A stretch of DNA of 64,000 nt, from assembly GCF_003326795.1 (NCBI RefSeq), contig NZ_JPWI01000001.1, forward strand, positions 124,001-188,000. The letters are read 5' to 3'. The notes under the pieces are model-generated. The model was given only the letters and a program-made list of their open reading frames with translations. It made no database searches and was not told where the DNA came from. Source of the stretch: Thalassospira profundimaris (lineage in GTDB: Bacteria; Pseudomonadota; Alphaproteobacteria; Rhodospirillales; Thalassospiraceae). The position numbers and the translations under genes are program-made. Positions 6,100 through 28,965 of this stretch are shown one piece after another. Numbering within the stretch: position 1 is the first letter of the stretch; each line of letters begins with the position of its first letter.

Positions 6100-6125
6100 T
6101 CGTACAGATGCGCAAAGCGCAGCAA

Positions 6126-6151
6126 AAAAGGTGGGCCAAGGCCCACCTTTT
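6126..6151. terminator. Bidirectional terminator between convergent genes
   Basis: AAAAGGTGGGCC and GGCCCACCTTTT pair perfectly around AA. The flanking A and T runs make it work in both directions. It separates the sulfotransferase-like gene (plus) from the chemoreceptor gene (minus). Confidence 0.9.
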
Positions 6152-6173
6152 CATTCTGTCGGCTGTGTCTAAA

Positions 6174-7877: not shown

Positions 7878-8007
7878 GCTTTCTCACTTTTCACCATCAC
7901 CGGTAAAATGAGGCATGCCAGTGAATGGTTTATTGTTCACATTTCTCGAAGGTCTTGGCGCCGGGATTTGAATCCTTATAAAAATTAAAATAACACAATT
8001 AATCTTT

Positions 8008-8027
8008 ACGTATAAATAATTATACGT
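8008..8027. promoter_or_regulatory. AT-rich palindrome upstream of the chemoreceptor gene
   Basis: The arms ACGTATAA and TTATACGT are perfect around ATAA. The site lies about 130 bases upstream of the chemoreceptor start, in a strongly AT-rich stretch (about 7975-8045) of the 282-base gap to truA. It could be an operator or part of a promoter. The assignment is from symmetry only. Confidence 0.35.
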
Positions 8028-8159
8028 TTGAATAGTTTACCACAATCAGCCATCAGCCCAAACCGCTCTCAGACAGCTTGACGCAAGGCGTGACAAACGT
8101 CGCAGCCCCTGGGCCACGCGTTTTAAGATGTATGGGAATGGTCGCGGATATGTCCGCCG

Positions 8160-8906
8160 TCAGTAATCGACCTTGACGAAATACAGGCCATCGGCCGGTG
8201 CGGTCGGGCCGCCTGCCCGGCGGTCACAGGCCTCAAGGGCGGTTTTGACGTCAATCGGCTTCCAGGCCCCTTTGCCAACCAGCACAAGGGTCCCGACCAT
8301 ATTGCGGACCTGATGATGCAGGAAGGACCGGCTTTCGGTATAGACCCGGATTTCAAGCGGATTTTCTTCACTGCGTTTGATTTCAAGTTTCTCAAGCGTC
8401 TTGATCGGGCTTTTGGCCTGACATTCGGTGGCCCGGAATGTGGTGAAATCAAACGTACCGATCAAATGCCGGGCCGCTTCATTCATCGCATCAATATCAA
8501 GAGGTTTGTAAATCCCCCATGCGAGCCCCGCCTCGAAGGTCAGCGGCGCACGGCGATTGATGATGCGATACATGTAGTAACGTTTCTTGGATGAAAACCG
8601 CGCATGGAAGTCTTCTGTGACTTCCTCGCATTCCTTGATCGCAACCGGATCAGGTTTGAGGTGATGGTTGATCGCATTCATCACCGCTTCAGCCGGATAG
8701 TATTTTGGCAGGTCAAAATGCACGACCTGACCCAGCGCATGCACCCCGGCATCGGTACGGCCTGAAACATAAACGCGCACGAACGTACCGGCGAATTTTT
8801 CGATTGCGGCCTCGAAAACCCGCTGAACCGAAATCACTTCGTCCTGGTATTGCCAACCGTGATAAGGGCGGCCATCATATTCGACGGTACATTTATAGCG
8901 CTGCAT
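8160..8906 (-). CDS. truA: tRNA pseudouridine synthase A
   Basis: This 248-residue enzyme isomerises uridines 38-40 in the tRNA anticodon stem-loop to pseudouridine. The catalytic aspartate is D52 in SGRTDAGVHA; other family markers are EYDGRPYHGWQ at the N-terminus, HFDLPKYYPAEA, DFHARFSSKKRYYMYR, and FLHHQVRNMVGTLVLVGKG near the C-terminus. The length is typical. The start ATG at 8906 is at the expected place. It lies downstream of argG on the same strand, behind a terminator, so it is probably transcribed separately. Confidence 0.97.
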   Translation of the reverse strand: MQRYKCTVEYDGRPYHGWQYQDEVISVQRVFEAAIEKFAGTFVRVYVSGRTDAGVHALGQVVHFDLPKYYPAEAVMNAINHHLKPDPVAIKECEEVTEDFHARFSSKKRYYMYRIINRRAPLTFEAGLAWGIYKPLDIDAMNEAARHLIGTFDFTTFRATECQAKSPIKTLEKLEIKRSEENPLEIRVYTESRSFLHHQVRNMVGTLVLVGKGAWKPIDVKTALEACDRRAGGPTAPADGLYFVKVDY

Positions 8907-14775: not shown

Positions 14776-15318
14776 ATGAACCAAAATCGCGATTTCTATG
14801 CAGGGCTGCTTGCCACGGCATTCTTTGCCATCGTCCTGTTCGTTCTGATCCCGATCTATGTGAAGGTTCCGTCTTTCATTCCGGGCTTTGCCCCGCCGCC
14901 TGACATGTGGCCGCGCGTGGTGGCCATTATCGGCCTTGTCATGGGCATTCTGGCGGTTGTTCTGACCTTTCCGAAAATGCGCGAAGCCAGCCGCCAGCAG
15001 GTCACCGGCCTTGGCAGCCGGATCATCAGCCACAAGACACTGATTGCGCGCTTCGTTGCGGTCCTGATCGTGTTTGCCGCCTTTGTCTTTGGCATGCCGA
15101 TGGTCGGTTTTGTCCCGGCAACCATTCTGATGCTGGGCGTGCTGTTTGTCATGACCGGCAATTTTGACCGCAAATTCTGGATGATCGGGCTGGCCCTTGT
15201 TTTCCCGGTTTTGCTTTATCTGCTGTTTACCGAAGTCACCCATACGCCCTTCCCCGAAGGCATGCTGTTTTCCGGCCGTCTTTCCGGCAGCCTTTCTGAC
15301 CTCGTAACCCTGATCTGA
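14776..15318 (+). CDS. tctB: Tripartite tricarboxylate transporter small membrane subunit
   Basis: This 180-residue protein has four predicted membrane segments, starting just after MNQNRDFYAGLLATAFFAIV, a typical TctB opening, and includes PPPDMWPRVVAIIGLVMGI. TctB is the small, poorly conserved subunit that pairs with TctA in the inner membrane. The ATG at 14776 is chosen over the in-frame ATG at 14761 because an ACGGA sequence lies just upstream and the family usually starts here. It sits between tctC and tctA, 18 bases before the latter. Confidence 0.88.
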   Translation: MNQNRDFYAGLLATAFFAIVLFVLIPIYVKVPSFIPGFAPPPDMWPRVVAIIGLVMGILAVVLTFPKMREASRQQVTGLGSRIISHKTLIARFVAVLIVFAAFVFGMPMVGFVPATILMLGVLFVMTGNFDRKFWMIGLALVFPVLLYLLFTEVTHTPFPEGMLFSGRLSGSLSDLVTLI

Positions 15319-15335
15319 TCGAAAGCCCCTTCGTT

Positions 15336-16844
15336 ATGTGGAATGAATTGCTTTATGCCTTCGACGCGGTCGCGACCCTTCCGAACTTTCTGGCGATGTT
15401 TGCCGGAATCTGGGCTGGCGTGATCATTGGTGCCATTCCGGGCATGACCGGTACGATGGCCGTGACCCTTGCGCTGCCCTTTACGTTCTATCTGCCGCCC
15501 GTCACCAGTATTCTTCTTCTGGTTGCGCTCTATAAAGGGTCGACCTATGGCGGGTCGATTTCCGCCATCCTGATCAAGACGCCGGGCACCGCGTCCGCGG
15601 CCTGTACGGTTCTTGACGGCTATCCGCTTGCCCGCGCGGGCAAGGGTGGCAAGGCGCTGAACATGGCGCTGATTTCAAGCTGCATTGGCGATTTCATTTC
15701 CAACATTTCGCTGTTCTTCCTGGCCATTCCGCTGGCGGCATTTGCGCTGCGCATTGGCCCGCCGGAATTCTTCATGCTGATGGCATTTTCGCTGACGATT
15801 GTTGCGAGTATTTCCGGTCGTTCGCTTGTTCTCGGGATTATTTCCGCCTGCCTTGGTCTTTTGCTGGCAACCGTGGGCGAGGATATTTACGGATCCTACC
15901 GGTTTGCGCTGTCTGAAGACATGAAATCGGGTCTTGGCATGGTACCGGTTCTGATCGGTCTGTTTGCCCTGCCCGAACTGATCAAGATGGTTGTCTTCCG
16001 CCCGGAAGAAAACAATGCGGCGCTTAAGCTTGGTGATAACCGCCTGACCCTTTCGGAATTCCGCGGATCAATCAAATCGATCTGCCGCGGGTCGCTGATC
16101 GGTGTTGTTCTGGGCGCCATTCCCGGTATCGGTCCGTCAACGGCTGCGTTCTTCTCCTATAGCGAGGCCCGCCGGACTTCAAAGAATGGCGACAAGTTCG
16201 GCGAAGGTGAGCTTGAAGGTGTTGCAGCATCGGAATCGGCCAATAACGGTGCGTGCGGTGCGACCATGATCCCGCTGATGGCGCTGGGTGTACCGGGTGA
16301 TGTGATTACCGGTGTGATGCTGGGTGCCTTCATGATCCATGGCCTGACCCCCGGCCCGCTTCTGTTCCAGAACAATATCGGCGAGGTTTATGCGCTGTTT
16401 ATCGGCATCCTGTTCAGTTCGGTCTTCCTGTTCATTGCAGGCAAGGTCACGGCAAATGCCTTTACCAAGATCTCGCGCATTCCGCAGACCCTGCTTCTGC
16501 CCTGCATCCTGATCCTGTGCGTCTATGGCATCTATTCCATCGGGGCGAGCCCGTTTGATGTCACGGTTCTTCTGGTGATGGGCGTGGTCGGCTTTTTGAT
16601 GATGCTGCTCAATATCCCGGCAGCACCGTTCCTGATCGCTTTCATCCTTGGCCCGATGTTTGAAGACAATATGCGTCGTTCGCTTGCGATTTCGCGCGGT
16701 GATCTTGGCGTCTTCTTCCAGTCATGGATTTCCTGGGGCTTCTTTGTCCTGACCGTTCTGTTCGTTGTTTTGACCATTCGCCGCGAATGGAAAAAATGGC
16801 GCGAAAAGCGTGACGTTGCCAATAACGCCACGTCCGCTTCCTGA
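15336..16844 (+). CDS. tctA: Tripartite tricarboxylate transporter large membrane subunit
   Basis: This 502-residue protein has about 11-12 membrane segments and the TctA motifs GAIPGMTGTMAVTLALPFTF, YKGSTYGGSISAILIKTPGT, GAIPGIGPSTAAFFSYSEAR and ALGVPGDVITGVMLGAFMIHG. TctA is the main transport subunit, driven by the ion gradient and fed by TctC. The length matches the family. It is followed 23 bases later by the argE-like gene, so transport and hydrolysis of the substrate are probably linked. Confidence 0.95.
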   Translation: MWNELLYAFDAVATLPNFLAMFAGIWAGVIIGAIPGMTGTMAVTLALPFTFYLPPVTSILLLVALYKGSTYGGSISAILIKTPGTASAACTVLDGYPLARAGKGGKALNMALISSCIGDFISNISLFFLAIPLAAFALRIGPPEFFMLMAFSLTIVASISGRSLVLGIISACLGLLLATVGEDIYGSYRFALSEDMKSGLGMVPVLIGLFALPELIKMVVFRPEENNAALKLGDNRLTLSEFRGSIKSICRGSLIGVVLGAIPGIGPSTAAFFSYSEARRTSKNGDKFGEGELEGVAASESANNGACGATMIPLMALGVPGDVITGVMLGAFMIHGLTPGPLLFQNNIGEVYALFIGILFSSVFLFIAGKVTANAFTKISRIPQTLLLPCILILCVYGIYSIGASPFDVTVLLVMGVVGFLMMLLNIPAAPFLIAFILGPMFEDNMRRSLAISRGDLGVFFQSWISWGFFVLTVLFVVLTIRREWKKWREKRDVANNATSAS

Positions 16845-16867
16845 TCCGAGAAACGAGAAATTTTAAA

Positions 16868-18046
16868 ATGTCCAAAACCAATATGTCCCGCCTCCACAGT
16901 GCCATCGATATGCTTGGCAAGCTGGTCGCGTTCGACACCACGAGCAAAAACTCGAATCTCGGTCTGATCCATTTTGTCCGCGACTATCTTGCGGAATATG
17001 GCATTGAATCGACCCTGTTCCATGATGAAACCGGCGAGAAAGCCAACCTGCTTGCGACCATTGGTCCCAAAGGGGTTCCGGGCATCGCGCTTTCGGGTCA
17101 TACCGATGTTGTGCCTGCCCTTGAGACCACCTGGATCAGCCCGGCATTCGAGCTGACCGAGCGTGACGGCAAGCTGTTTGGTCGCGGGGCAGCGGACATG
17201 AAGGGCTTTTCGGCCTGTGTGCTGGCCCTGATCCCCGATCTGGTCAAACGCGATCTGGCAATCCCGTTCCATCTTTGCCTGTCCTATGACGAGGAAGTCG
17301 GCTGCATCGGTGTTGGCTCGATGGTCGATCATCTCGCCGCGATGGATACCCCGCCGCGTCTGGCGGTGATTGGTGAGCCGACCGACATGAAAGTCATCAA
17401 TGGCCAGAAAGGCAAATATTCGATGCGGGTGGGCGTTACCGGCACCGCCGGGCACAGCTCGTTTGCGCCCAACCATGTCAATGCCATCGAATATGCGACC
17501 CGTGCGATCAACCTGATTGCCGAGAAGGCCCGCGAATTCGAAGAAAACGGCCCGTTTGACCACGATTTCACCGTGCCGCACAGCACCATGCTGACCACCA
17601 CGATTGGCGGCGGCACGGCGACCAACGTCACCCCGGATTATTGTGAATTCACCTTTGAAATCCGCCATCTGCCCGAACATGACGCCGAAGCGGTGATTGC
17701 CGAAATTCGCGATACTGTGATGGCGACACTGGATGCGGAAATGAAGGCCAAAGCCCCCGAGACCGGCTTTACATGGGAAAAGATCTTTTCCTATCCGGGG
17801 ATGGGTGATTGCACTGATGCCCCGGCATTCGAGCTTGTGCGCAACATCATCCCCGAAATTTCGGGCAAGGTGTCCTATGGCTCCGAAGGTGGCGTGTTTG
17901 AAAAACAGGGCAATATCCCGTCAATCATTTGCGGTCCGGGCAGCATCAAACAGGCCCATACGCCCAACGAATTTATCGAGATTTCGCAGCTCGAGGAATG
18001 TCTTTCCTTCCTTGAGGCGCTCACAGATCAGGCCGTCGCGGCCTGA
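16868..18046 (+). CDS. argE: Acetylornithine deacetylase (ArgE-like M20 amidohydrolase)
   Basis: This 392-residue M20 metallohydrolase has SGHTDVVP (first zinc His and the adjacent catalytic Asp), GRGAADMKGFSA (bridging Asp), YDEEVGCIG (catalytic and ligand Glu) and the dimerisation-domain segment GTAGHSSFAPNHVNAIEYA. The opening LVAFDTTSKNSNLGLIHFV matches ArgE of alphaproteobacteria. ArgE cleaves N-acetylornithine to ornithine and acetate, but members of this family also cleave other N-acyl amino acids. Being last in the tct operon suggests that it acts on the imported compound. A terminator lies 200 bases downstream. Confidence 0.88.
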   Translation: MSKTNMSRLHSAIDMLGKLVAFDTTSKNSNLGLIHFVRDYLAEYGIESTLFHDETGEKANLLATIGPKGVPGIALSGHTDVVPALETTWISPAFELTERDGKLFGRGAADMKGFSACVLALIPDLVKRDLAIPFHLCLSYDEEVGCIGVGSMVDHLAAMDTPPRLAVIGEPTDMKVINGQKGKYSMRVGVTGTAGHSSFAPNHVNAIEYATRAINLIAEKAREFEENGPFDHDFTVPHSTMLTTTIGGGTATNVTPDYCEFTFEIRHLPEHDAEAVIAEIRDTVMATLDAEMKAKAPETGFTWEKIFSYPGMGDCTDAPAFELVRNIIPEISGKVSYGSEGGVFEKQGNIPSIICGPGSIKQAHTPNEFIEISQLEECLSFLEALTDQAVAA

Positions 18047-18422
18047 TACCCTCACCGCGGCGCTGCGTCACCCTCAGCGCCACTCGGCCGCTGCAAGCAA
18101 GCTGTCCACTCCAGCTTAGCGTCGCGCACCGACAGGTGAGAACTCCCTGACTGCATCTCTCCCCAAGGGATGCAGTTTATGGTCGGGCTTCTCCCCCCAG
18201 ATCCGGCCCCCCGGATTTGACAGATCCCGACCAATAGCAAACCAAACTCAAGACCGGCTCGTTCATCGATGCCGGTCTTTTTTTGTGGTCGGGTCAAGGC
18301 GGCATTCCCAAGCGATCAGACTACGATGGCCTATCGATTATTTTTAGTTAGCAAAGTTTGACAAAACACAAGGAATAGAACCCTAATACAACCTGTGGTT
18401 AATATTGAAAGGGCGAATCACG
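18047..18422. other. Intergenic region after argE
   Basis: The first part holds GC-rich hairpins, including ACTGCATC/GATGCAGT (18150-18176) and ATCCGG-cccc-CCGGAT (18203-18218). The argE terminator is at 18250-18284. After about 18320 base composition falls sharply to AT-rich DNA, which contains the promoter of the small gene at 18423. No gene is visible in the gap. Confidence 0.6.
18250..18284 (+). terminator. Rho-independent terminator of the tct-argE operon
   Basis: AAGACCGGC and GCCGGTCTT pair around a 12-base loop, followed by eight T residues. Confidence 0.9.
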
Positions 18423-18737
18423 ATGTCTACTTACTGCGTAACTTTTCGAATTGCGAGTAAGACGGTCAACGGTAAAACTTACGATGATCGTTACGAGAAG
18501 CTAATTGACAACCTTCACACAGGAAGTAACGGCTTCTGGGCCGAACCGACATCTTTTATCCTCGTAGGCTCAAGCCTAGACACAAACTCTTTTGCAAAAA
18601 AGATTGTAGAAGGACTCAGCAGGTCAGATGACATGCTATTTGTTTTTGACCCAGAAGATATGTCTGCCTGCTACTTCGGCGCAGTAGATGGTCCTGATAT
18701 TTTAAAGTCGTTTTTCCCACGCGCTCAAGAAATCTAA
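18423..18737 (+). CDS. Small protein, possible Cas2-like (SinR-type) fold; function unknown
   Basis: This 104-residue protein starts MSTYCVTFRIASKTVNGKTY. It reads as a small alpha/beta protein: a first strand, then a helix (YDDRYEKLIDNLH), a second strand in WAEPTSFILVGSSLD, a helix, then DDMLFVFDPEDMSACYFG. The pattern of strand, W-x-x-x-S/T-strand and final acidic strand resembles stand-alone Cas2/VapD-like ferredoxin folds that databases call SinR-like, but I infer this from pattern only. It has no cas genes or repeats around it. Its DNA is more AT-rich than its neighbours and it stands alone, which suggests horizontal transfer. The ATG at 18423 has AAAGGG upstream. Confidence 0.7.
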   Translation: MSTYCVTFRIASKTVNGKTYDDRYEKLIDNLHTGSNGFWAEPTSFILVGSSLDTNSFAKKIVEGLSRSDDMLFVFDPEDMSACYFGAVDGPDILKSFFPRAQEI

Positions 18738-18778
18738 CAACCACCTAAGTACATACAAATCAGATAATTCGAAAAGAT

Positions 18779-20782
18779 TTACTCTTTCTTGCTACTCGCA
18801 CTGAAGCCCTTGGTGAAGTCGCGCCAGCTTTCATCTTCGCCGACCTTTTTCGAGCGCGCCAGGGCGGCCTTGCCAAGTGATCGAACCGGGATGTTTTGAT
18901 GGGCATGGAGCATGAAGTCATGCCAGAGCGTTGCGGGCAACCCGCCGCCGGTGACTTCGTCCATCGGACTGCCATTGTCATTCCCAACCCAGACGCCCGC
19001 CACCAGATCGGAGGTATAGCCGATGAACCATGCATCGCGGTAATCCGACGTGGTGCCGGTTTTACCCGCAGCCGGACGGTCAATGATGGCATTGCGCCCG
19101 GTGCCCTTGGCAATCACGGCCGAGAGCATGTTGTTCATTTCACCGGCATGGAGCGGGTTCATCAGACGGCCCGGGAATTCATCGCTGCGCTGATAAAGAA
19201 CTTCGCCGCCCTTGCCGATAATCTTGCTGACGGCATGCGGGAAGACAGCAAAACCGCCATTGGCAACAATGGCATAGGCCCCGGTCAGCTCAAGCATCGA
19301 GACTTCGCTGGTGCCCAGTGCCAGACTGGGTTCAGCGGTAAGCGGGGATGAAACCCCCATGTCACGCGCCTTCTGGACCACGGTGCCCAGACCGACTTCC
19401 ATCGCCATCTGGACGGCAATAGAGTTGTTTGACGTCGCCACCGCATCACGGATCGACATGGTGCCGTGATGCTGGCGATCAAAGTTGCGCGGTTCCCAGC
19501 CATTGATGGTGATCGGCACATCGCGCATCCAGTCGTTCGAACCGAGACTTTTGTCGAGCCCGGCAAGATAGACAAACAGCTTGAAGACCGAACCCGGTTG
19601 ACGGCGGGCCTGTGTCACACGGTTATACTGGCTTTCGAAATAGTCGCGTCCGCCGACCATGGCGCGCACCGCCCCATCGGGCGTCATTGCCAGAAGGGCA
19701 CCCTGTGTCACATTTTTGGCCCGGGCCCCGTTGCTTTCAAGTGCACGTTCAAGATTGAATTCGGCGATTTCCTGAAGACGGGAATCAAGGGTGGTATGGA
19801 CCAGAAGATCCTGATCGACATAGCCGACATAATCGCGCACCCGATCAAGCACCCAGTCCGAGAAATAGCGCACACCCGGCCCGGCATCGGCCTTGCGCGC
19901 GGTGCGCACACGGGTCTGTTTGGCGCGTTCGGCACGCGCATTGGTCAGGGCACCGGTCGAGGCCATTGCATCAAGCACGATATTGGCCCGCTCGGCCGAT
20001 TTGACCGGATCGACCATCGGGTTATAGCGACTTGGCGCCTTTGGCAGACCGGCGAGTACAGCCGCGTCATAAAGGTTCAGACGACGCGGATCGGTCCCGA
20101 AATAATAGCGTGATGCGGCATCAATCCCGTAAAGGCCCGAACCGAAATAGATGCGGTTAAGATAGAGCGACAGGATTTGCTGTTTGTCGAATTTGAATTC
20201 CAGCCAGATCGCCAGAAGGACTTCCTCGATCTTGCGGCCAAAGCTTTTTTCCGGCGACAGGAACAGGTTCTTTGCCAGCTGCTGGGTGATGGTGCTGCCA
20301 CCTTCGGCCAGACGTCCCGAGGACAGGTTTGCCCAGGTCGCGCGCAGGATGCCGACAATATCCACGCCGAAATGGTCATAGAACCGGCGGTCCTCGATCG
20401 AGACAAAGGCCTGACCGACATAATCGGGAAGATTGCGGACCTCGACCGGAGTGCCATAACGGTTGCCATAGGTGGCAAGGGTTGCGCCATCAATGCTGAT
20501 CACTCGGATCGATGGTTTGCGTTCGCTGGCAACATCAAAGCTGACCTTGTCGGGAAGGCCATAGCCGTAATAGGCGACAACACCCCCGCCCAGCACCATG
20601 ACCCAAATGCTGCCCAGAACGATGAATTTTGCAATCGCCTCTGGCCCGGGGATCATATCCCCCAGACGCGCAAAAAGACTTCCCTTGCGTTTGCCTGCGC
20701 TGCTGACGCGCTTTTTCTTTGGCTTCGAACCGGTCGATCCCTTGCGAACGCTGGTTCGTCGTTTGAATTCTCTTTGGGCCAC
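18779..20782 (-). CDS. Bifunctional penicillin-binding protein (class A, PBP1a-type)
   Basis: This 667-residue class A PBP polymerises and crosslinks peptidoglycan at the outer face of the inner membrane. A basic N-terminal tail (about residues 1-45) precedes a membrane anchor (about 50-73). The GT51 domain has the catalytic Glu in SIEDRRFYDHFG (E130) and GGSTITQQLAKNLF. The transpeptidase has SVFK (Ser 398), SNN (451) and KTGTT (574), so both activities look intact. The start is taken as GTG at 20782, with AGGTG seven bases upstream; the frame runs on to 20848. It is downstream of a degenerate paralogue on the same strand. Confidence 0.93.
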   Translation of the reverse strand: MAQREFKRRTSVRKGSTGSKPKKKRVSSAGKRKGSLFARLGDMIPGPEAIAKFIVLGSIWVMVLGGGVVAYYGYGLPDKVSFDVASERKPSIRVISIDGATLATYGNRYGTPVEVRNLPDYVGQAFVSIEDRRFYDHFGVDIVGILRATWANLSSGRLAEGGSTITQQLAKNLFLSPEKSFGRKIEEVLLAIWLEFKFDKQQILSLYLNRIYFGSGLYGIDAASRYYFGTDPRRLNLYDAAVLAGLPKAPSRYNPMVDPVKSAERANIVLDAMASTGALTNARAERAKQTRVRTARKADAGPGVRYFSDWVLDRVRDYVGYVDQDLLVHTTLDSRLQEIAEFNLERALESNGARAKNVTQGALLAMTPDGAVRAMVGGRDYFESQYNRVTQARRQPGSVFKLFVYLAGLDKSLGSNDWMRDVPITINGWEPRNFDRQHHGTMSIRDAVATSNNSIAVQMAMEVGLGTVVQKARDMGVSSPLTAEPSLALGTSEVSMLELTGAYAIVANGGFAVFPHAVSKIIGKGGEVLYQRSDEFPGRLMNPLHAGEMNNMLSAVIAKGTGRNAIIDRPAAGKTGTTSDYRDAWFIGYTSDLVAGVWVGNDNGSPMDEVTGGGLPATLWHDFMLHAHQNIPVRSLGKAALARSKKVGEDESWRDFTKGFSASSKKE

Positions 20783-20985
20783 AAATGCACCTATCGGTCT
20801 GGACCGGTCATGCCATGCGAACCCGTTGACGCGAAAGTGGTGATCCACTTTGCCAGCCCTGCGGGTGCGCCGGACATTCCGGCGTTTCTTATTTCTACCG
20901 GCAGCCCGAAATCAGACAGGCCGGTATTGTTATATGTCCCAACCGAGGAGGGAGTCCCCCGTCTCCCCGCTTTGCGACTGTTGTT

Positions 20986-22902
20986 TTATTTTTTGCCGTT
21001 CAAACCCTGTTTCCACAGGTCGGTTACACCATCACTGTCACGGCGACGTTGCGACGACGCACGGATCATCGAGCGGATGGGTAATCCTTCATGTGCATCA
21101 AGCATAAATAACCGCCACAAAGACGCAAGTTCTACCTCACCGCGGACATCCATGCGTTCACGTTCATCATTGCCCGCCCAGACCGTGGTGATCAGATCAG
21201 ACGAGAAACCGACATACCATGCATCGGTACCGCCACCGGCCACCGTGCCATAACCGGCAAAGGGCCGGTCAAGGCGGACCTGCGGGTCGGTCACACTGGC
21301 ATAGAGCACATAGGATCCCTGAATGGCCTCGTCGGTCAGGCGTTTTTCCTGTTCGGGATCAACGCGCTGATAGATCGGTTGTGCCTTGGGATCGTCGGTG
21401 TAGGAAACCGTGTTGATCAGGGTGATCATCGGAGGTTTTCCCGCATTCTGCGGCAAGGCATGAATGGCGGTAATGTCGCTGAGCGTGACCGGATCAAGAC
21501 CGACCACGGTGCGGATATCGGTCGAAAGCGGACTTTTGATCCCGATATTATGGGCATATTGACGGACATTGAGCAGCCCGTAATGGTCGGCCAGATTGGT
21601 CGGCACCGTATTCACATCGCGGACAAAGGCTTCGCGCAGTGAAATTTGTCCCTGATATTCGTGATCGGGGTTGATCGGCCGCCAGCCCCCTACCGCCATG
21701 CGGTTATCGCGCACCCATTGCGCCGGGTCGCTGTTTTCATTGAGCGCGTAGTAATATGTGGCGATCTTGATCATGCGTCCGGCTGGATGACGGACTTCGG
21801 TCACGCGGTTGCGCTGAAACGGGGAATAGTCCGAACCACCGATCAGCGCACGAATGCGGCCCTCGGGGCTTATGGACAGCAGGCCGACCTGATTGGCCCC
21901 GCGCGGTTTAAGACGCAGCTCCGAGACTTCCCGGACCACATCGCGCGCAAGGTTTTGCACCTTGAGATCAATGCTGGTGACGACATCGATATCGCGGCTG
22001 GTATAGCCGACAAGATCGGCGACTTCTTCAAGCACCATATCGACCACATAGCCCGACAGGACATTTTCCTCGATCTGGACATCGAGCTTGGGCAAGACAA
22101 GGGTCAGGGCCGAAACGCGGTTGCCCTCGATGAATTTGTATTGGGCGAGCTTGGCCAGAATTTCATTGGCCTCGGCAGCGGTTTCATGCGGATTGAACAG
22201 CGGATTGAATTTTTTCGGATCGCTGATCGCCGCAGCCAGAACGGCTGCCTGATGGAGGCTCATGCGTTCGGACGGGCTGCCATACCAGATGCGCGATGCC
22301 GCCGTGATACCGAAAATGCCGCGCCCGACATAGCTGCGTTCAAGGTAGCTGCGCAGGATGGTCTTTTTGCTAAAGCTCCATTCCAGCCAGAGTGCGACGA
22401 GCAGTTCCTGAAAATGGCGACCCGCACTGTTGGCCTTGGTTTTGAAGAAGCTGCGCGCGACCTTCATGGTGATGGTCGAGCCGGAGCCTTCCGCGCCACT
22501 GAAAATGCGGGCGAAATCCGATCCTGACACCCCGAAATGGTCATAGAAATTCGGATCAGCCGCCGCAACAAACACGTTTTGCACCCGTTCGGGCAAGGTG
22601 GTCAGCGAGACATCCTGACTGTAATGGCCCTTGATGGTTTCGAGCAGCGCACCGTCATAGCCCAGAATACGGATTTCGGGGCTTCGGATCATGTTGCGGC
22701 TCAGATCAAGGCTGGACTGGATCGAATATCCAATCCCCAGAATGGCAAAGCCGGTGACCGACAGGAAAAAGGCAATCAGAAACGTTCTGCGCCGCCGGAT
22801 ACGCCGCCGAATGGTGCGCAGCTCGCGCTCGGCAATCCGCTTCATCGCTGTTTGTGCTGCTGATTGTCCGCCGCTTTGTTGTTCGTCGTCGTCTTCTGCC
22901 AC
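20986..22902 (-). CDS. Class A PBP paralogue lacking all catalytic motifs (pseudoenzyme)
   Basis: This intact 638-codon gene encodes the layout of a class A PBP: an acidic then very basic N-terminus, a membrane anchor (about residues 40-60), a GT51-like domain and a transpeptidase-like domain. Aligned by eye with the gene next door, the GT51 Glu is Ala115 (in AAADPNFYDHFG), QQ of STITQQ is MK, the SxxK serine is replaced (AGRMIK, 374-379), SxN is DVN and KTG is YGT (551-553). Scaffold residues such as FYDHFGV and AWYVGFSSDL remain. I infer a structural or regulatory partner of the active PBP. The start is a GTG at 22902; an ATG at codon 20 is an alternative. Confidence 0.85.
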   Translation of the reverse strand: MAEDDDEQQSGGQSAAQTAMKRIAERELRTIRRRIRRRRTFLIAFFLSVTGFAILGIGYSIQSSLDLSRNMIRSPEIRILGYDGALLETIKGHYSQDVSLTTLPERVQNVFVAAADPNFYDHFGVSGSDFARIFSGAEGSGSTITMKVARSFFKTKANSAGRHFQELLVALWLEWSFSKKTILRSYLERSYVGRGIFGITAASRIWYGSPSERMSLHQAAVLAAAISDPKKFNPLFNPHETAAEANEILAKLAQYKFIEGNRVSALTLVLPKLDVQIEENVLSGYVVDMVLEEVADLVGYTSRDIDVVTSIDLKVQNLARDVVREVSELRLKPRGANQVGLLSISPEGRIRALIGGSDYSPFQRNRVTEVRHPAGRMIKIATYYYALNENSDPAQWVRDNRMAVGGWRPINPDHEYQGQISLREAFVRDVNTVPTNLADHYGLLNVRQYAHNIGIKSPLSTDIRTVVGLDPVTLSDITAIHALPQNAGKPPMITLINTVSYTDDPKAQPIYQRVDPEQEKRLTDEAIQGSYVLYASVTDPQVRLDRPFAGYGTVAGGGTDAWYVGFSSDLITTVWAGNDERERMDVRGEVELASLWRLFMLDAHEGLPIRSMIRASSQRRRDSDGVTDLWKQGLNGKK

Positions 22903-23033
22903 GCCGAAATTCCGTTCATTGCCCGTGTTTTATATTGTTCCCCACCAGTAAAACGCCAAGCCGTTAAGAAAATACTTTAACCGCCGGTTTCACAGCGAAT
23001 ATTCGTCAAAGCGGACAGGCCCGAATACAAATG

Positions 23034-23057
23034 GCGGGGCAGCCGAAACTACCCCGC
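23034..23057 (-). terminator. Possible terminator after rfbC
   Basis: GCGGGG and CCCCGC pair around a loop about 50 bases beyond the rfbC stop, with some pairing in the loop. The T-tail on the minus strand is poor (CATTTG), so this may be only a partial signal. Confidence 0.35.
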
Positions 23058-23107
23058 TTTGAACGGTGATGCTGTGATCAATGACCAGGGGAGGTTTTCG
23101 GGCGTGG

Positions 23108-23728
23108 CTAGCGCGCACTCGCGCCAAAGCGTTGCGCATCGGCAAAGCCCCTGATCGGGGGCATGGCGCCGAGCATATCGGGGGCCAGATCGGCCAGACG
23201 CGGCAAATGACGGTCGCGCTCCGAAAGGACGACCTGTTGTCCGAACAATTCCCAGTCTATGCCAAGATCGGGATCATTCCAGGCAATGCCGAAATCATGT
23301 TCGGGGCTGTAATAGTTCGAAGCCTTGGTTGTGACATGGGTTTCGGGACGCAAGGTCTTGAAGCCCTGGGCAAAGCCTTCGGGGATCCAGAGCTGATACC
23401 AGTTTTCTGCACTCAGCTCGATCTTCAGATGCCGTCCAAACGTTTCTGATCGCGGGCGGATATCGACGGCAACATACAGGATTGCGCCCTGTGTCACCCG
23501 GACAAGACGGCCCTGGGCATAGGGGCTGGTCTGAAAATGCAGGCCACAAAGCGTATTGATCGGGGTGCTGATGATCTGGTTTTCCTGAACCAGATCGATC
23601 TCGCCGATCACGTCGCGGAAATCATCATTGCGAAAGGTCTCGGCAAACACGCCGCGCTTGTCCCGGTGGCGGTTGGGCACAAACAGAACCGGTCCGTCGA
23701 TATCAAATTCATCAAATTCCACAGGCAT
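23108..23728 (-). CDS. rfbC: dTDP-4-dehydrorhamnose 3,5-epimerase family protein
   Basis: This 206-residue cupin protein matches RmlC: GPVLFVPNRHRDKRGVFAET at the N-terminus, then CGLHFQTSPYAQGRLVRVTQG with the catalytic His, LWIPEGFAQGFKTL, and NYYSPEHDFGIAWNDPDLGI with the conserved Tyr. It epimerises the 4-keto sugar in dTDP-rhamnose synthesis. The rfbA, rfbB and rfbD genes are not in the window, so either they are elsewhere or the enzyme acts on another 4-keto sugar. It is the last gene of the surface-glycan strand, six bases after the exported propeller-like gene. Confidence 0.92.
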   Translation of the reverse strand: MPVEFDEFDIDGPVLFVPNRHRDKRGVFAETFRNDDFRDVIGEIDLVQENQIISTPINTLCGLHFQTSPYAQGRLVRVTQGAILYVAVDIRPRSETFGRHLKIELSAENWYQLWIPEGFAQGFKTLRPETHVTTKASNYYSPEHDFGIAWNDPDLGIDWELFGQQVVLSERDRHLPRLADLAPDMLGAMPPIRGFADAQRFGASAR

Positions 23729-23734
23729 TGATCG

Positions 23735-24943
23735 TTACTCCCTGATCGAGATCGGAACACGGATCAGTTGACGCGGCACGCGCCAGCGGTCCTTGAAGGG
23801 TTTGGGCACCAGACGGACAAAGATCAGGCTGGCCTGATCATCGACCGTGCCAAACAGGCGGTCTGTGCTGTCATCATCAATGATCGACGGATAGGCCGAA
23901 AAGCTTTCGCCCGGCCCGGCATCGGGTTGCAGGGGCTGCTGATAGAGCAATTTCGGATCGGACCAGCGGGTCAGATCTGTCGAGGTCGAATAGAAAAATC
24001 CTGCGATATCGTCCTTGCCGGTATTGTTCTTACTGCTCTGGCGAATGCGGTGCTGATAGATCGCGATGAAGCGGTTGGAGTTTTCATCGCGGACCAGACC
24101 GCGAATGGATGATACCCCCTTGGGCCCGACGCGCGCGCAGTCGGTTTGGCGAACCGACCAGCCCTGATCGGTCAGGGTGGCGGCCTGCTCAAACCCCGAT
24201 CCGGTCCAGATATCCCACCGGCCCGGATCATTGGCCGGGGCGCGCACCAGACAGTTTCGCGAGTTTTCCCAACTATCGGCACGTCGCCAGACAATGGCAT
24301 AAAGGTAGTTCTGCCACTGAACGATATTGGTCACGGTCACATAGCTTGGCGCGCGTTTGCGATCATCGCGATAGGGCCGGGGCGGCGGAAAGGGGGCATG
24401 ACGGGGCGGATCACCAAAATAGCTGAACGTCTTGCCCCCATCGGTTGATTTCAGGGTCACCAGACCGTTGATCCAGCAATCGGTGCGCTGGGTGCGGCCT
24501 TCACACGGCATGTCATGGCGGTAGGGGATGAAGCTTGCACTGCCAAGCGCATAAACATCGCGCCCGTTGCTGGTATAGATCGCCTGAAGCCAGGTGCGAT
24601 CATCAAGCAATGCCGGGTCGGCCTTGCCTGCGGCCATGAAGCGGCTGTCGCAATCGGGTTTCAGGCTGTCAAAGCCGTAACCGACAAAGGCCCGGTTTTG
24701 AAAATTCGGGGCAAACAGCACCATTTTGCCCTGATCATTGCGAAAGGCGCGGGCCGGTGAGTCAGGAAGATGATGGTTGTCACAACCATCGACATCACTG
24801 TCAAACATCACGGTTTCCGGGCCCGAGACCGTGATTTCGGTATCGGCTGCGGCTGGCGTCCAGCCGGCAAGACCGCCAATCAGCAACCCCGCGACAAAGG
24901 CCGACAGCGCGACAGATGATCTGGAATATTGAAATCCGGGCAC
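23735..24943 (-). CDS. Exported propeller-like protein of unknown function
   Basis: This 402-residue protein has a signal peptide (VALSAFVAGLLIGGLAG, cleavage near AAA-DTE) and a mature part rich in aromatic residues and beta strands. An Asp-box, STDGGKTFSYFG (about residues 164-175), and a sialidase-like STSTDLTRWSDPKLLY suggest a beta-propeller of the sialidase/glycosidase superfamily. I cannot name a substrate, and catalytic residues are not identifiable. Several cysteines (CDNHH, CDSRF, CWING) suggest disulfides in the periplasm. The start is a GTG at 24943 behind AAGGGG. It lies between galE and rfbC, so a role in surface glycan handling is likely. Confidence 0.72.
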   Translation of the reverse strand: MPGFQYSRSSVALSAFVAGLLIGGLAGWTPAAADTEITVSGPETVMFDSDVDGCDNHHLPDSPARAFRNDQGKMVLFAPNFQNRAFVGYGFDSLKPDCDSRFMAAGKADPALLDDRTWLQAIYTSNGRDVYALGSASFIPYRHDMPCEGRTQRTDCWINGLVTLKSTDGGKTFSYFGDPPRHAPFPPPRPYRDDRKRAPSYVTVTNIVQWQNYLYAIVWRRADSWENSRNCLVRAPANDPGRWDIWTGSGFEQAATLTDQGWSVRQTDCARVGPKGVSSIRGLVRDENSNRFIAIYQHRIRQSSKNNTGKDDIAGFFYSTSTDLTRWSDPKLLYQQPLQPDAGPGESFSAYPSIIDDDSTDRLFGTVDDQASLIFVRLVPKPFKDRWRVPRQLIRVPISIRE

Positions 24944-25002
24944 AGCTTACCCCTTTGACAGGCCATAAAAGGACAGGGTGATAAAACAACAAGGAAAAGG
25001 GC

Positions 25003-25036
25003 GACGCGTAGCACTTCTGGGGCAGTGCCACGCGTC
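25003..25036 (-). terminator. Terminator-like hairpin
   Basis: The 13-base arms GACGCGTAGCACT and AGTGCCACGCGTC pair with one mismatch around an 8-base loop. On the minus strand it is followed by GCCCTTTTCCTTG and TTGTTTTATC. It is 12 bases downstream of the small frame at 25049 and 60 upstream of the propeller gene, so it may end the galE transcript or attenuate entry into the next gene. Confidence 0.6.
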
Positions 25037-25048
25037 ACGTCAGCAATG

Positions 25049-25174
25049 TCACGCCGCCTCTGCGACTTTCGGGGCCGGGAGGAAGCCCAGACAGCGTGCC
25101 ATGCTGTGTTCCTTGCAAGACACATTTCGCGCATCACGGCATGACCTTGTCCAAGTCAGGAAGGATCGGGTCAT
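25049..25174 (-). CDS. Candidate 41-residue small protein
   Basis: The frame begins with ATG at 25174, eight bases after a strong AGGAG site, and ends 12 bases before a terminator-like hairpin. The product starts MTRSFLTWTRSC and ends with FLPAPKVAEAA, with three cysteines (residues 12, 20 and 28) and many basic residues. A second ATG at 25102 also has an AAGGA site. The arrangement of good ribosome binding site, short frame and terminator supports a real small gene, but I recognise no family and conservation has not been tested. It might instead be a leader peptide for the propeller gene. Confidence 0.4.
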   Translation of the reverse strand: MTRSFLTWTRSCRDARNVSCKEHSMARCLGFLPAPKVAEAA

Positions 25175-25307
25175 TTTGGTATCTCCTGCCGGGTCGGTGA
25201 GCACCAGTTGAGGCCGGAACATACCGCACCGGGTCATATCGCGCCGGGCCACTTGCCAGCATTTGTGCGAACCGCTTGCGCATGTATCGAATGCAGGATG
25301 CGGCTTG

Positions 25308-26303
25308 TCAGGCCGCACTGACTTCGCGGCCCTTGAGGCTTTCTTCCCAGTCAAGGGCGTGCCGGACAATCGCCGTGAGATCGTCATGGACCGGCTTCCA
25401 GCCAAGTTTCTGACGAATGCGGTCGGCCCCGGCAATCAGGGCTGCCGGATCACCGGCACGGCGTTCGGCCAGATCGACGGTGAAATCAACGCCCGAGACC
25501 TGTTTGACGGCATCAATGACCTCGCGGACCGAGAAACCGCGCCCATACCCGCAATTCATCACATCGCTTTCGCCGCCCTTTTCAAGATATTCAAGCGCAA
25601 GCACATGGGCATTGGCCAGATCGGTGACGTGAATATAGTCACGGATACAGGTGCCATCGGGGGTTTCGTAATCCTCGCCATAGATGGCCATTTTCGGCCG
25701 GACACCGGTTGCGGCCTGACTGGCGATCTTGATCAGATGGGTCGCCTTGCGCGAAGTCTGCCCCGACCGGCCCGCCGGATCAGCACCGGCAACATTGAAG
25801 TAACGCAACGCGACATAGCGCAGATCATGGGCAATCGCGGCATCAGCCAGCATCTTTTCGGTCATCATCTTGGATGTGCCATAAGGCGAGATCGGCTTGA
25901 GCGCAAAGTCTTCAAGGATCGGGGTGGTTTCGGGTTCACCGTAAACGCCCGCGGTCGAGGAAAAGATGAAATGCCTGATCCCGCTATCGACAGCGGCCTG
26001 GGCAAGCGCACGGGAATTGACCGTGTTGTTATAGTAATATTCCAGCGGATAGATCACGGAATCCGGCACAATGATCGAACCGGCAAAATGCATGATTGCC
26101 GTGACCTCATGTTCGGCGATCACCCGACGCACCAGATCATAGTCACCACAGTCACCTTCGACAAAAGCCGCCCCGGCAGGCACCGCCCAGCGATGCCCCT
26201 GAGAGAGATTGTCAAGCACGACGACATTGCGTCCGCCATCAAGCAGTGCGAGTGCCGCGTGGCTACCGATATAACCAGCGCCACCTGTTACAAGTACAGT
26301 CAT
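25308..26303 (-). CDS. galE: UDP-glucose 4-epimerase
   Basis: This 331-residue short-chain dehydrogenase-type enzyme interconverts UDP-glucose and UDP-galactose. It begins MTVLVTGGAGYIGSHAALAL, the NAD-binding GxxGxxG motif; the catalytic pair appears as SSTAGVYGEPE and SPYGTSKMMTE (Y-x3-K). RYFNVAGADP and DGTCIRDYIHVTDLANAH are GalE signatures. The ATG at 26303 has AAGGAGA eight bases upstream; the longer frame to 26417 has no support. It supplies activated sugar to the glycosyltransferases upstream. Confidence 0.96.
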   Translation of the reverse strand: MTVLVTGGAGYIGSHAALALLDGGRNVVVLDNLSQGHRWAVPAGAAFVEGDCGDYDLVRRVIAEHEVTAIMHFAGSIIVPDSVIYPLEYYYNNTVNSRALAQAAVDSGIRHFIFSSTAGVYGEPETTPILEDFALKPISPYGTSKMMTEKMLADAAIAHDLRYVALRYFNVAGADPAGRSGQTSRKATHLIKIASQAATGVRPKMAIYGEDYETPDGTCIRDYIHVTDLANAHVLALEYLEKGGESDVMNCGYGRGFSVREVIDAVKQVSGVDFTVDLAERRAGDPAALIAGADRIRQKLGWKPVHDDLTAIVRHALDWEESLKGREVSAA

Positions 26304-26413
26304 TGCCGTGTCTCCTTGTTGATGTTGCCCATTCTGATCTGGACATACTGGACAAGCACAGCCGCCATGACCTTCCCGCGCCGGGGTCGCCATGGCGGCA
26401 ATACCCGGTGTCG

Positions 26414-27604
26414 TCACGCAACCTTTCGTTCGGGCTGCGCATCCCTGCTCATGACATTGAGCATCTTGTGATCGATGTTGTTTTCGCTCAGGAACGTCGC
26501 CATCTCGCGATAGGTCTGGAACCAGGCGCGGTTGAACTTGTCGAAAAGATCCTGATTCCAGTAATCTTCAAGCACGAATTCCTTGGTCGAGAACACGTCA
26601 TAGGACGGGATCTGATAGGTTTCGGCGAATTCGACCGTCCGGCTGTCATAGGTGAAATAAATCGACGGAACACCATTCGACAACGCCATCAGATTGCCGT
26701 GCAGACGATAGCCCAGCACGCAGTCCTTTTGACGGACGAGGTTTTCATAATCGGCAACCACGTCGGAATAGAACAGCTTTTCGCGATAGAGACGTTCCAT
26801 CGTGTCGTCGAGATACCAGTTCCTGACCCAGTCATTGTTTTTCAGCGCCTGCATCGCTTCTTCGCGCTGCATGTTGCTGCCAAAGACCAGTTTTTTCTCT
26901 TCGGGTTCACCCTGAGCCATCAGGGTGATGTCATCAAACCTGCCAGCAAGCTCCTTGACCAGATCACGATGGAAGGTCAGGTAACGCTTGATGTCCTGCG
27001 CATAGGCCGGTGACACTTCGCGGCGCAGGGTGATGCCGACATTGCGCACACTATCAAGCGACGGCAGTTTGATGCGCATGTCGGGATTGTTTTGGCGGAA
27101 GGCGGTCGGACAGCCAACGATACGGACATTGGTAATCCCCAGATCCCAAAGGACCTGTGCGGTATAAGCCCCGCGCACCCCGATAGAGGTCGTTGAGTCC
27201 GCCATCATGCGCAGAACGGTTTTGGTCTGTTCGGAAAGCTCGAGCTTGCCTTTGACCGGTGCCTGCGCACCAATGCCAAAGCCCAGAACCGGCAATTTCA
27301 AGCGTTTGAGAACATCAATGGTATTGCGCCAATCCATTTCCGAATGGATGTAATTCGACCCGCGCAGGAACACATAGTCATATTCCTCGCGAAGACGGTC
27401 GATATCTTCCATCTTTGGTTCGGCAATCGGCAGAACACCGAGCTTGTCATAGTTCATCAGTTTCAACGATGAATCGAAAACGAAGGCATCACCGATATTG
27501 TGGTAATGGTTGATGCTCCGCTGAACATCCTGATAGTTGTACCACCGGACGCAGTCGTGGTCGTAGACTTCGCCCGACGGGATCATTACGAGAACGCGCG
27601 CCAT
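26414..27604 (-). CDS. Polysaccharide pyruvyl transferase family protein
   Basis: This 396-residue protein belongs to the family that adds ketal-linked pyruvate from phosphoenolpyruvate to sugars (CsaB/ExoV/WcaK type). Visible marks are NIGDAFVFDSSL near the N-terminus, SIGVRGAYTAQVLWDLGI, VRIVGCPTAFRQ, and VLGYRLHGNLMALSNGVPSIY with the conserved GxRLH. The ATG at 27604 is behind AAGGAGA; the frame extends upstream to 27970 inside the next gene, without support. Pyruvyl groups give surface glycans negative charge and in Gram-positives anchor S-layer proteins, which is of interest next to an RTX surface protein. Confidence 0.88.
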   Translation of the reverse strand: MARVLVMIPSGEVYDHDCVRWYNYQDVQRSINHYHNIGDAFVFDSSLKLMNYDKLGVLPIAEPKMEDIDRLREEYDYVFLRGSNYIHSEMDWRNTIDVLKRLKLPVLGFGIGAQAPVKGKLELSEQTKTVLRMMADSTTSIGVRGAYTAQVLWDLGITNVRIVGCPTAFRQNNPDMRIKLPSLDSVRNVGITLRREVSPAYAQDIKRYLTFHRDLVKELAGRFDDITLMAQGEPEEKKLVFGSNMQREEAMQALKNNDWVRNWYLDDTMERLYREKLFYSDVVADYENLVRQKDCVLGYRLHGNLMALSNGVPSIYFTYDSRTVEFAETYQIPSYDVFSTKEFVLEDYWNQDLFDKFNRAWFQTYREMATFLSENNIDHKMLNVMSRDAQPERKVA

Positions 27605-27642
27605 ATTGTGTCTCCTTGGTTGATCACGTTTTTGTTCCGAAT

Positions 27643-28965
27643 TCAGGCCGTGCTTGCCACGCTGTGTTCCGCGGCAGCCTTTGCAGACAGCAGGCGCGTT
27701 TTCAGAACCTCCCGATACTGCGCAAGATGTTGCTCTGCGCATTCCTGATAGGTCGTGACACGCGGAATCCCTTCGCGCATCCGATCCCAGAGTTTGTTGT
27801 CGCTTAGAACTTCGATCAGCCGGTCGGCCAGGTCTTCGGCACTGCCGACACGGAAATGCAGACCATTGACGCCGTCCGTAATTTTTTCGGCCATTCCACC
27901 AATATTCGAGCAAATCATCGGTCGCCCGTGGAAGAATGCCTCCTGAATGACGACGGGCGAGTTTTCCCACCAGATGGACGGAATGATTGTCCAGTCGGCG
28001 AGTTCCATCAGTTTGGGCATTTCCGTATTCTGATAGGCGCCATAGAAACGCACCCGGTCACCGGCCTTTTCGATCAGGTCATGGACCTTGTCCTGATAGT
28101 CCTGTGGCTGGCGGTCCAGATTGCCGCCAAAGATCATCAGACGGGCATCATCGCCCCAGATGTCATCGGGCACACGCCCGACCGCATCAAGCAGGATATC
28201 GGCCCCCTTGAACATCGTCAGCTGCCCGAAAAAGGCAAAGCGCGACCGCCGCGGCTGGGTTTTGGAAAGCGGGCGGTCTTTTGCCCGTTCGTCGATATCA
28301 AGACCGTTCTCGATCACCGACATTTTTTCGGCCTTCATGCCCCAGTCGATAAAACGATTGGCCAGAAATTCGCTGGGCGACACATAGTGGTCAGCCAGTT
28401 CAAGCATCGCCTTGATGAAGCGTTCACGACGCAGGAAGGATGCCGGGGAGATGTTGGGGAAACAGCCATTGCATTCAATCGGGCTTGCCCGGTTGCACAG
28501 CTTGGTCCCGCCGCTTTTGAGCATCTGGCCATGGTTGTGGCAGATGGTCAGGAATTCGTGGAACGTAAAGAAGATCGCCGTTTCCGGAAGTGCTTCACGG
28601 ATGGCATAGATCGTCTCAAGACCAAGGCCCAGATAGTGATGGAAATGCACCACATCGGGTTCGTAATCCTTTACGAAGCGCAGGAAATCGCGATCAATTT
28701 CATCAGTACTGCCATTTGACAGCAGGAAGTGATCATAGTTTTCGGCGTGATAAAGGATTTCATTGTCCTTTTGACGCAGGCTCATCAATGCCGATGCGCC
28801 ATGGCGCGGAACAGGATTGCCGACCCGGGCCAGATAGAAACTTTCGACCCCGTCAATGGCATTGAGTCCCTTATGCAGGTTGTAGGAGGCGACTTCTGCC
28901 CCGCCCAAAGACATGCTGGGGTGACCATGCGAAATAACCAGAACACGCAAATCATTCGACGGCAT
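27643..28965 (-). CDS. Glycosyltransferase family 4 protein
   Basis: This 440-residue GT-B enzyme has an acceptor-side N-terminal half (RVLVISHGHPSMSLGGAEVA) and a donor-binding C-terminal half with FFGQLTMFKGADILLDAVG and IPSIWWENSPVVIQEAFFHG, the E-x7-E region of retaining GT4 enzymes. It resembles the protein of the gene at 32020-33282 (shared WWEN-P-VIQEAF-HGRP and GGMAE), so the two are paralogues. The ATG at 28965 has GGAG nine bases upstream and overlaps the preceding gene by 14 bases. Donor and acceptor are unknown. Confidence 0.92.
   Translation of the reverse strand: MPSNDLRVLVISHGHPSMSLGGAEVASYNLHKGLNAIDGVESFYLARVGNPVPRHGASALMSLRQKDNEILYHAENYDHFLLSNGSTDEIDRDFLRFVKDYEPDVVHFHHYLGLGLETIYAIREALPETAIFFTFHEFLTICHNHGQMLKSGGTKLCNRASPIECNGCFPNISPASFLRRERFIKAMLELADHYVSPSEFLANRFIDWGMKAEKMSVIENGLDIDERAKDRPLSKTQPRRSRFAFFGQLTMFKGADILLDAVGRVPDDIWGDDARLMIFGGNLDRQPQDYQDKVHDLIEKAGDRVRFYGAYQNTEMPKLMELADWTIIPSIWWENSPVVIQEAFFHGRPMICSNIGGMAEKITDGVNGLHFRVGSAEDLADRLIEVLSDNKLWDRMREGIPRVTTYQECAEQHLAQYREVLKTRLLSAKAAAEHSVASTA

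Follow-up and report, generated by a model that had tools for sequence, protein, structure and literature searches.

Class A penicillin-binding proteins (PBPs) join a GT51 (transglycosylase) module to a transpeptidase module. In E. coli PBP1A and PBP1B, mutants in the GT51 glutamate or in the serine of the transpeptidase SxxK motif (E233 and S510 in PBP1B) lose the respective activity; class A PBPs are under the control of protein partners and of their own association with one another, and PBP1B is more active where it is dimerised, as stated in parts of PMC4632607. Caulobacter PbpC is a class A PBP whose N-terminal peptide binds the bactofilin BacA (PMC12448750, in part). Replacement of the catalytic glutamate in another GT51 protein, SaMGT E100Q, does not abolish moenomycin binding in the donor site (PMC6053601, in part).

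The window analysed here is a stretch of 64,000 nucleotides from Thalassospira profundimaris, in which two class A PBP genes stand in tandem (Table 1). An earlier note on this DNA had described one of them as an intact frame of 638 codons that has lost both active sites, a description that was borne out by alignment with the neighbouring gene, by 29 orthologues of each of the two genes and by reading of the codons. The product, here called the pseudo-PBP, is 33% identical to its active sister by pairwise alignment. Both modules were recognised by Pfam: PF00912 scored 124.4 bits (4.5e-36, gathering cut-off 27) in the pseudo-PBP and 216.1 bits in the active sister, and PF00905 scored 25.8 bits (7.5e-6, gathering cut-off 22.1) and 90.3 bits, respectively. 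A chance match is excluded, because both modules lie above the cut-off and the gene occurs in all 29 genomes of the genus. Among NCBIfam models, NF051885 (PbpC) gave the top score for both proteins, at 312.8 for the pseudo-PBP and 661.5 for the active sister, both under the cut-off of 900; TIGR02074 (PBP1A, cut-off 508.75) is passed by the active sister at 588 and not by the pseudo-PBP at 293.

The AlphaFold model of the pseudo-PBP shows the whole bimodular fold with a pLDDT of 83.3, from an input alignment that included active paralogues, whose fold may be imposed on the model; when the input consisted of the 29 pseudo-PBPs only, the prediction was of low quality (pLDDT 49.9). The model matches class A PBP structures over residues 72-621.

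Table 1 Position of the PBP pair, its modules, altered residues and conserved non-coding elements in the window
Feature	Position	Strand	Remarks
Pseudo-PBP gene	20986..22902	-	638 aa, GTG start; predicted bitopic GT51 + transpeptidase protein, both active sites lost
Active sister gene	18779..20848	-	class A PBP, PBP1a/PbpC-like, catalytic motifs intact; in tandem, downstream of the pseudo-PBP gene
Predicted continuous basic cytoplasmic + transmembrane helix	22696..22866	-	pseudo-PBP residues 13-69, from the structure model
GT51 (transglycosylase) module	22138..22611	-	pseudo-PBP residues 98-255; PF00912 match residues 84-252
Transpeptidase module	21088..21897	-	pseudo-PBP residues 336-605; PF00905 match residues 348-459
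Ala115 codon	22558..22560	-	replaces the GT51 catalytic Glu (sister E152); T 14, A 11, S 4 of 29
Lys147 codon	22462..22464	-	replaces the second Gln of motif II; K 25, R 3, Q 1 of 29
Motif IV helix cluster	22339..22362	-	residues 181-188; T181, R184, S185, E188 in 29/29, against Q, S, L, N in 29/29 sisters
Arg376 codon	21775..21777	-	replaces the SxxK nucleophile (sister S420); R 28, S 1 of 29
Asp429 codon	21616..21618	-	replaces the SxN serine (sister S473); D in 29/29 (DVN)
DIRTVVGLD	21493..21519	-	residues 462-470; replaces EPSLALGTS of the sister; 8 of 9 positions fixed differently
Y551-G552-T553 codons	21244..21252	-	replace KTG (sister K596-T597-G598); Lys replaced in 29/29
Conserved upstream block	22946..22971	-	TTTCTTAA-N2-GCTT-N3-G-N-TTTACTG; 44-69 bases before the pseudo-PBP start
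Conserved gap element	20934-20969	-	CGGGGAGACGGGGGACTCCCTCCTCGGTTGGGACAT; between the two PBP genes; 17/29 genomes; single-copy in the window's genome

The GT51 Glu, SxxK Ser, SxN Ser and KTG Lys are invariant in the 29 active sisters. All 29 pseudo-PBPs have lost the first, third and fourth of these residues, and 28 have lost the SxxK serine; at the position of the KTG lysine they carry Tyr (24) or Phe (5). Alignment and codons confirmed the reading of the GT51 Glu as Ala115, of SxN as DVN and of KTG as YGT. For the SxxK serine, 'Gly or Arg' had been proposed: Arg376 stands at the position of the nucleophile, and the Gly aligns with an invariant preceding Gly and was dropped. Arginine is unable to serve as an acyl nucleophile. 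A proposed change from QQ to MK in motif II is clear at the second position but not at the first, since STITMQ occurs in solved PBP1a enzymes (3udf, 4oon).

Other active-site residues were kept in both paralogues, each in at least 28 of 29 proteins: in the GT51 module D116, F119, H122, S142, T143, T145, R162, K179 and E166, the second GT51 glutamate, and in the transpeptidase module K379 of SxxK and N431 of SxN. The GT51 groove of the pseudo-PBP is altered by Q147>K and K150>R. Orthologues that keep the catalytic residues were also sought, and none of the 29 has the full set. The pseudo-PBP of one genome (L057 in G020, 6528-8435, minus strand) is the only one with an SxxK serine (PGSMIK), and it also has Gln147; it reads A115, DVN and YGT, so that it is without the Glu, the SxN serine and KTG. 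This protein could represent an intermediate stage in the succession of losses, or else a reversion. The pseudo-PBP thus has both class A modules and lacks the Glu, the SxxK Ser, SxN and KTG; judged from its sequence, it is a class A PBP by descent and fold but fails as a synthase by the defining catalytic motifs, and its status as a pseudoenzyme is near certain.

The pseudo-PBP was found in all 29 Thalassospira genomes examined, which are also all the genomes examined of the family, with 54-93% identity to the copy in the window. Its GTG start aligns in 29/29 (the window and 28 genomes). Frame disruption in relatives was looked for and none was found; a TAA in one genome (G006) lies at the C-terminal end, and that frame measures 640 aa from the GTG. 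Synteny was equally constant, with the active sister downstream of the pseudo-PBP on the same strand in 29/29 genomes. The gap, with the aligned equivalent of the window's active start taken as its end point, spans 104-194 bp in 24 genomes and 384-450 bp in the other 5, which form a clade (L058-L062) that includes T. mesophila (G026). On contig C1 of one genome (G013) the pair is present at both ends, with pseudo-PBP frames at 5711-7603 and 4699367-4701259 and identical scores, probably an unresolved end overlap of a circular contig. The window's genome has three GT51 matches only, the tandem pair and one PBP1a. Seven genomes (G027, G023, G011, G019, G025, G010 and G007) have a further distant PBP match in frames of 709-758 aa, at 25-27% identity.

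Pairwise dN/dS was calculated by NG86; of 406 possible pairs 358 were finite and 353 fell into bins. Medians for the pseudo-PBP and the active sister, respectively, were 0.121 and 0.029 at dS 0.01-0.1 (2 pairs), 0.033 and 0.026 at dS 0.1-0.3 (14 pairs), 0.144 and 0.048 at dS 0.3-0.6 (8 pairs), 0.134 and 0.072 at dS 0.6-1.0 (59 pairs), and 0.160 and 0.103 at dS 1.0-2.5 (270 pairs), where dS above 1 is near saturation. By region (67 pairs, 62-67 usable depending on the region), the medians for the pseudo-PBP were 0.298 in the cytoplasmic part, 0.382 in the transmembrane (TM) segment, 0.118 in GT51, 0.112 in the linker, 0.108 in the transpeptidase and 0.151 in the C-terminal tail, and for the active sister 0.122, 0.099, 0.063, 0.140, 0.049 and 0.071 in the same order. 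Constraint on the pseudo-PBP is looser than on its sister, by a factor of 1.3 to 4 depending on the bin, yet it is strong, most of all in the periplasmic part with both dead modules. This pattern speaks against decay, and likewise against a periplasmic part that is no more than a passive remnant. The claim that the gene is not simply decaying therefore stood, with frames intact in 29/29 and dN/dS far below 1; relaxed selection, with dN/dS near 1, was looked for and not found, the medians by dS bin being 0.03-0.16.

Of the alignment columns in which each group agrees in at least 28 of its 29 proteins, 117 have the same residue in both groups and 63 a different one. The four replacements in the motif IV helix have the spacing i, i+3, i+4, i+7, like one face of a helix. 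Taken with the exchanged nine-residue segment of the transpeptidase (Table 1), this looks like remodelling followed by conservation, and not like drift. Cytoplasmic positions conserved in the pseudo-PBP and variable in the sister include G12, A15, A16, A19, I23, R36 and R37, the first six of which are invariant in the 29 pseudo-PBPs. Conservation is low in the TM segment (mean entropy 1.80 against 0.73; dN/dS 0.38), which counts against a specific TM-TM interface.

Homologues outside the genus were searched for in 199 genomes of the order, 23 of them Thalassospira, and in 385 genomes of the class, 2 of them Thalassospira, leaving 176 and 383 outside genomes; three order genomes were in both sets. 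Up to 6 or 3 first-look candidates were scored per genome, and the best E-value of each genome was seen. Among the matches listed, none in the 176 order and 383 class genomes was as good as the Thalassospira active sisters, the best outside bit score being 376 against 400-432 for the sisters. A wider pseudo-PBP family outside the genus was not found in the order and class searches or in a contig scan by two short peptide patterns; the 22 named contig loci in the orthologue alignment belong to Thalassospira (21) and to one 'Rhodospirillales bacterium'. Pattern matching found the Glu of motif I, STxxQQ, the SxxK Ser and K[TS]GT in all 28 order homologues inspected (27 whole frames and one split). 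In the class homologues the patterns were found in 28/28 (Glu), 28/28 (KTGT), 27/28 (PGSxxK) and 24/28 (STxxQQ), and the one without PGSxxK (L144) reads TGSSFK by alignment; all 56 inspected outside homologues thus keep the Glu, the SxxK Ser and K[TS]GT. The split homologue of the active PBP (L128, 3647-5917, minus strand, in G126) is divided into two frames by one TGA. In a genome of another family of the order (G091), a 244-aa second GT51-like frame, possibly mtgA-like, lies beside the active-PBP homologue (L092, 3495-4229, plus strand).

A tree of 86 rows was built by a quick method with SH-aLRT support only and rooted on the outside homologues. The 29 pseudo-PBPs were monophyletic (100), with a stem 3.52 changes per site long; the 29 active sisters grouped together (89), and the pseudo-PBPs joined between the active sisters and a set of 27 outside homologues and PBP1a (support 80), an attachment that is insecure because of the long branch and the weak support. 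The tree is consistent with what seems the most likely origin, a tandem duplication in the Thalassospira stem followed by a long branch. When seven genes around the pair were compared by BLAST with the loci of outside homologues, one weak match was obtained, to galE; therefore synteny outside the genus gives no backing to the view that the active sister and these homologues are orthologous, and it neither supports the duplication nor dates it. Recent acquisition as a foreign gene was considered and rejected, the same pair being present in 29/29 genomes and the pseudo and active subtrees being largely congruent.

The block upstream of the pseudo-PBP gene is recognisable in 29/29 aligned upstream regions, with the core TTAA ... 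TTTACT. A search of the 4.68-Mb genome with up to 3 mismatches returned one match, with 0 mismatches; the pattern read backwards, as a control, gave 1+1. The block may serve the pseudo-PBP gene as promoter or operator, and its conservation suggests that expression is maintained. RNA from the gap between the two genes folds better than shuffled sequences (z -2.8). Since the gap has its own conserved element in 17/29 genomes, co-transcription of the pair need not hold. Rfam gave no match in window positions 15000-30000, and a promoter and terminator scan of the sequence was near shuffle expectation. Upstream of the pseudo-PBP, at 23108-29013 on the minus strand, lies a series of polysaccharide genes, for a dTDP-sugar epimerase, an NAD-dependent epimerase, a polysaccharide pyruvyl transferase and a group 1 glycosyltransferase, together with a frame of 402 aa (23735-24943) in which Pfam recognised nothing. 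No sensor or signalling family was found by Pfam in eight neighbouring frames scanned, two of which had no match at all. Two bactofilin-family genes are present in the window's genome.

An association of the pseudo-PBP with its sister was assessed from protein distances across the 29 genomes, with rne, amiC and prfB regressed out; argE, which the stretch examined contained in 25 genomes only, was omitted. The partial correlation was 0.72 for the pseudo-PBP and the active neighbour (0.58 without the five-species clade), 0.49 for the pseudo-PBP and PBP1a (0.21) and 0.80 for the active sister and PBP1a (0.62), and argE as sole control (25 genomes) gave 0.90 for the pseudo-PBP and its sister. The raw distance correlation of the pseudo-PBP was 0.969 with amiC and 0.980 with the active sister. 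The correlation within the pair is unspecific, because that of the sister with PBP1a is higher and the raw value for amiC is nearly equal, and it is weakened further by the non-independence of distance pairs and the linkage of the two genes. It lends weak support to a partnership. A role as a partner that may modulate or scaffold the sister, or in glycan binding, is favoured by the 29/29 synteny and by a GT51 pocket of which much is kept.

The explanation we prefer, tentatively and at somewhat short of an even chance, is that the pseudo-PBP is a tandem duplicate from the stem of the genus, dead at both sites and under purifying selection, that acts as a pseudoenzyme partner of the neighbouring synthase. 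The sequences show that the duplicate has lost the GT51 general base and the transpeptidase nucleophile, SxN and KTG, that its frame is intact and that it is under purifying selection; it would have been remodelled at about 60 positions and maintained since then as a pseudoenzyme. Like other class A PBPs it would reside in the inner membrane, where it may associate with the active sister in the way that E. coli PBP1B does with itself and so modulate where, or how strongly, the sister acts. The GT51 groove, without its base and with many of the substrate-side residues kept, may hold lipid II or nascent glycan unpolymerised, and a salt bridge between Arg376 and Asp429 may fill the old transpeptidase site. 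A stricter form is rather doubtful: an obligate, genus-wide heterodimer, its dead subunit gating the live one allosterically while retaining lipid II or nascent glycan in a GT51 groove that has no base, with Arg376 and Asp429 plugging the transpeptidase site. If true, the obligate pair would be a wall-synthesis analogue of kinase/pseudokinase pairs.

The pseudo-PBP could instead be a binder or sensor that stands alone, its dead GT51 groove, its transpeptidase cleft or both binding lipid II or nascent glycan, which it would report or sequester independently of the neighbour. This is unlikely, though it is the alternative that survives best: the residues kept in both paralogues, the strong constraint on the periplasmic modules and linker and the unspecific correlation with the sister all agree with it, and the cytoplasmic residues conserved only in the pseudo-PBP could couple it to a cytosolic partner. 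Against it stand the tandem, unbroken in 29 genomes, and the eight scanned neighbouring frames, among which no sensor or signalling family was found. Less probable by far is a membrane anchor or recruitment hub that works through its cytoplasmic tail, as in Caulobacter PbpC, with the periplasmic part a passive remnant. In favour of such a role are the six tail positions invariant in 29/29, the binding of PbpC to BacA as a precedent (PMC12448750, in part) and the two bactofilin-family genes, but the median dN/dS of the tail (0.30) exceeds that of GT51 (0.118) and of the transpeptidase (0.108), the opposite of what a passive periplasmic remnant predicts.

That the pseudo-PBP has kept a catalytic activity through some non-canonical route, with E166 as sole GT acid/base for instance, is very improbable. 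E166 and much of the groove are indeed invariant, but Arg cannot be the acyl nucleophile, the position of the lost Glu is free to vary between A, T and S, as expected if it is unused, and mutation of the key Glu blocks glycosyltransferase activity in E. coli PBP1A and PBP1B (PMC4632607, in part). A young pseudogene or neutral decay, to which the faster evolution of the pseudo-PBP (mean protein distance over 29 genomes 0.415 against 0.255 for the sister) and its long stem might point, was rejected as hardly credible given 29/29 intact frames, dN/dS far below 1, invariant replacement residues and the conserved GTG start and upstream block.

The openly licensed PMC literature was searched for precedents. 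Among the matches listed, titles and abstract starts described neither an inactive class A PBP nor a pseudoenzyme of the PBP kind, and a search for Thalassospira with penicillin-binding returned no such protein in titles or abstract starts. One candidate, PMC6107284, was dropped as a precedent, since in the part of that text concerned the degenerate site is the GGDEF domain of RgsP; an inactive class A PBP was also looked for in PMC8546619, and is not mentioned in the portion of that text covered. Pseudoenzymes are known as a kind, and a doubly dead, genus-fixed class A PBP beside a live sister is new as far as these searches go, within the openly licensed literature and among the matches listed. 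Wall synthesis would be controlled in a different way by a dead paralogue that is fixed next to its live counterpart throughout a genus. The pair also offers a natural test of non-catalytic class A PBP roles, both activities being gone and the rest kept since the species diverged, and the retained and newly fixed residues mark candidate non-catalytic surfaces. The SxxK serine is the residue acylated by penicillin; annotation by domains alone would probably name the pseudo-PBP a penicillin-binding protein, although it is without that serine.

Compared with PBP1a/PbpC-like and other class A PBPs (3udf and 3udi, A. baumannii PBP1a; 5fgz, E. coli PBP1b), the pseudo-PBP shares the domain order, the membrane anchor and the fold of the model, as well as the scaffold motifs, the second GT51 Glu, the SxxK Lys and the SxN Asn. 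It differs in being without the GT51 general base, the nucleophile, the SxN Ser and the KTG Lys, and in falling under the NCBIfam cut-offs. Caulobacter PbpC is likewise an alphaproteobacterial class A PBP and provides a precedent for a tail-mediated role; it is a cell-wall synthase, unlike the pseudo-PBP, and the likeness was judged by the NF051885 score. In E. coli, the activity of PBP1B is raised by the activators LpoB and FtsN, and class A PBP activity by partners and PBP-PBP association (PMC4632607, in part). The candidate partner in Thalassospira differs from LpoB and FtsN in being a dead paralogue. To our knowledge, LpoB and FtsN are not homologues of PBPs. EnvC and NlpD, degenerate LytM factors, are catalytically dead members of a wall-enzyme family that are kept as regulators; they differ from the pseudo-PBP in belonging to another enzyme class and in being activators of hydrolases, not paralogues of a synthase.
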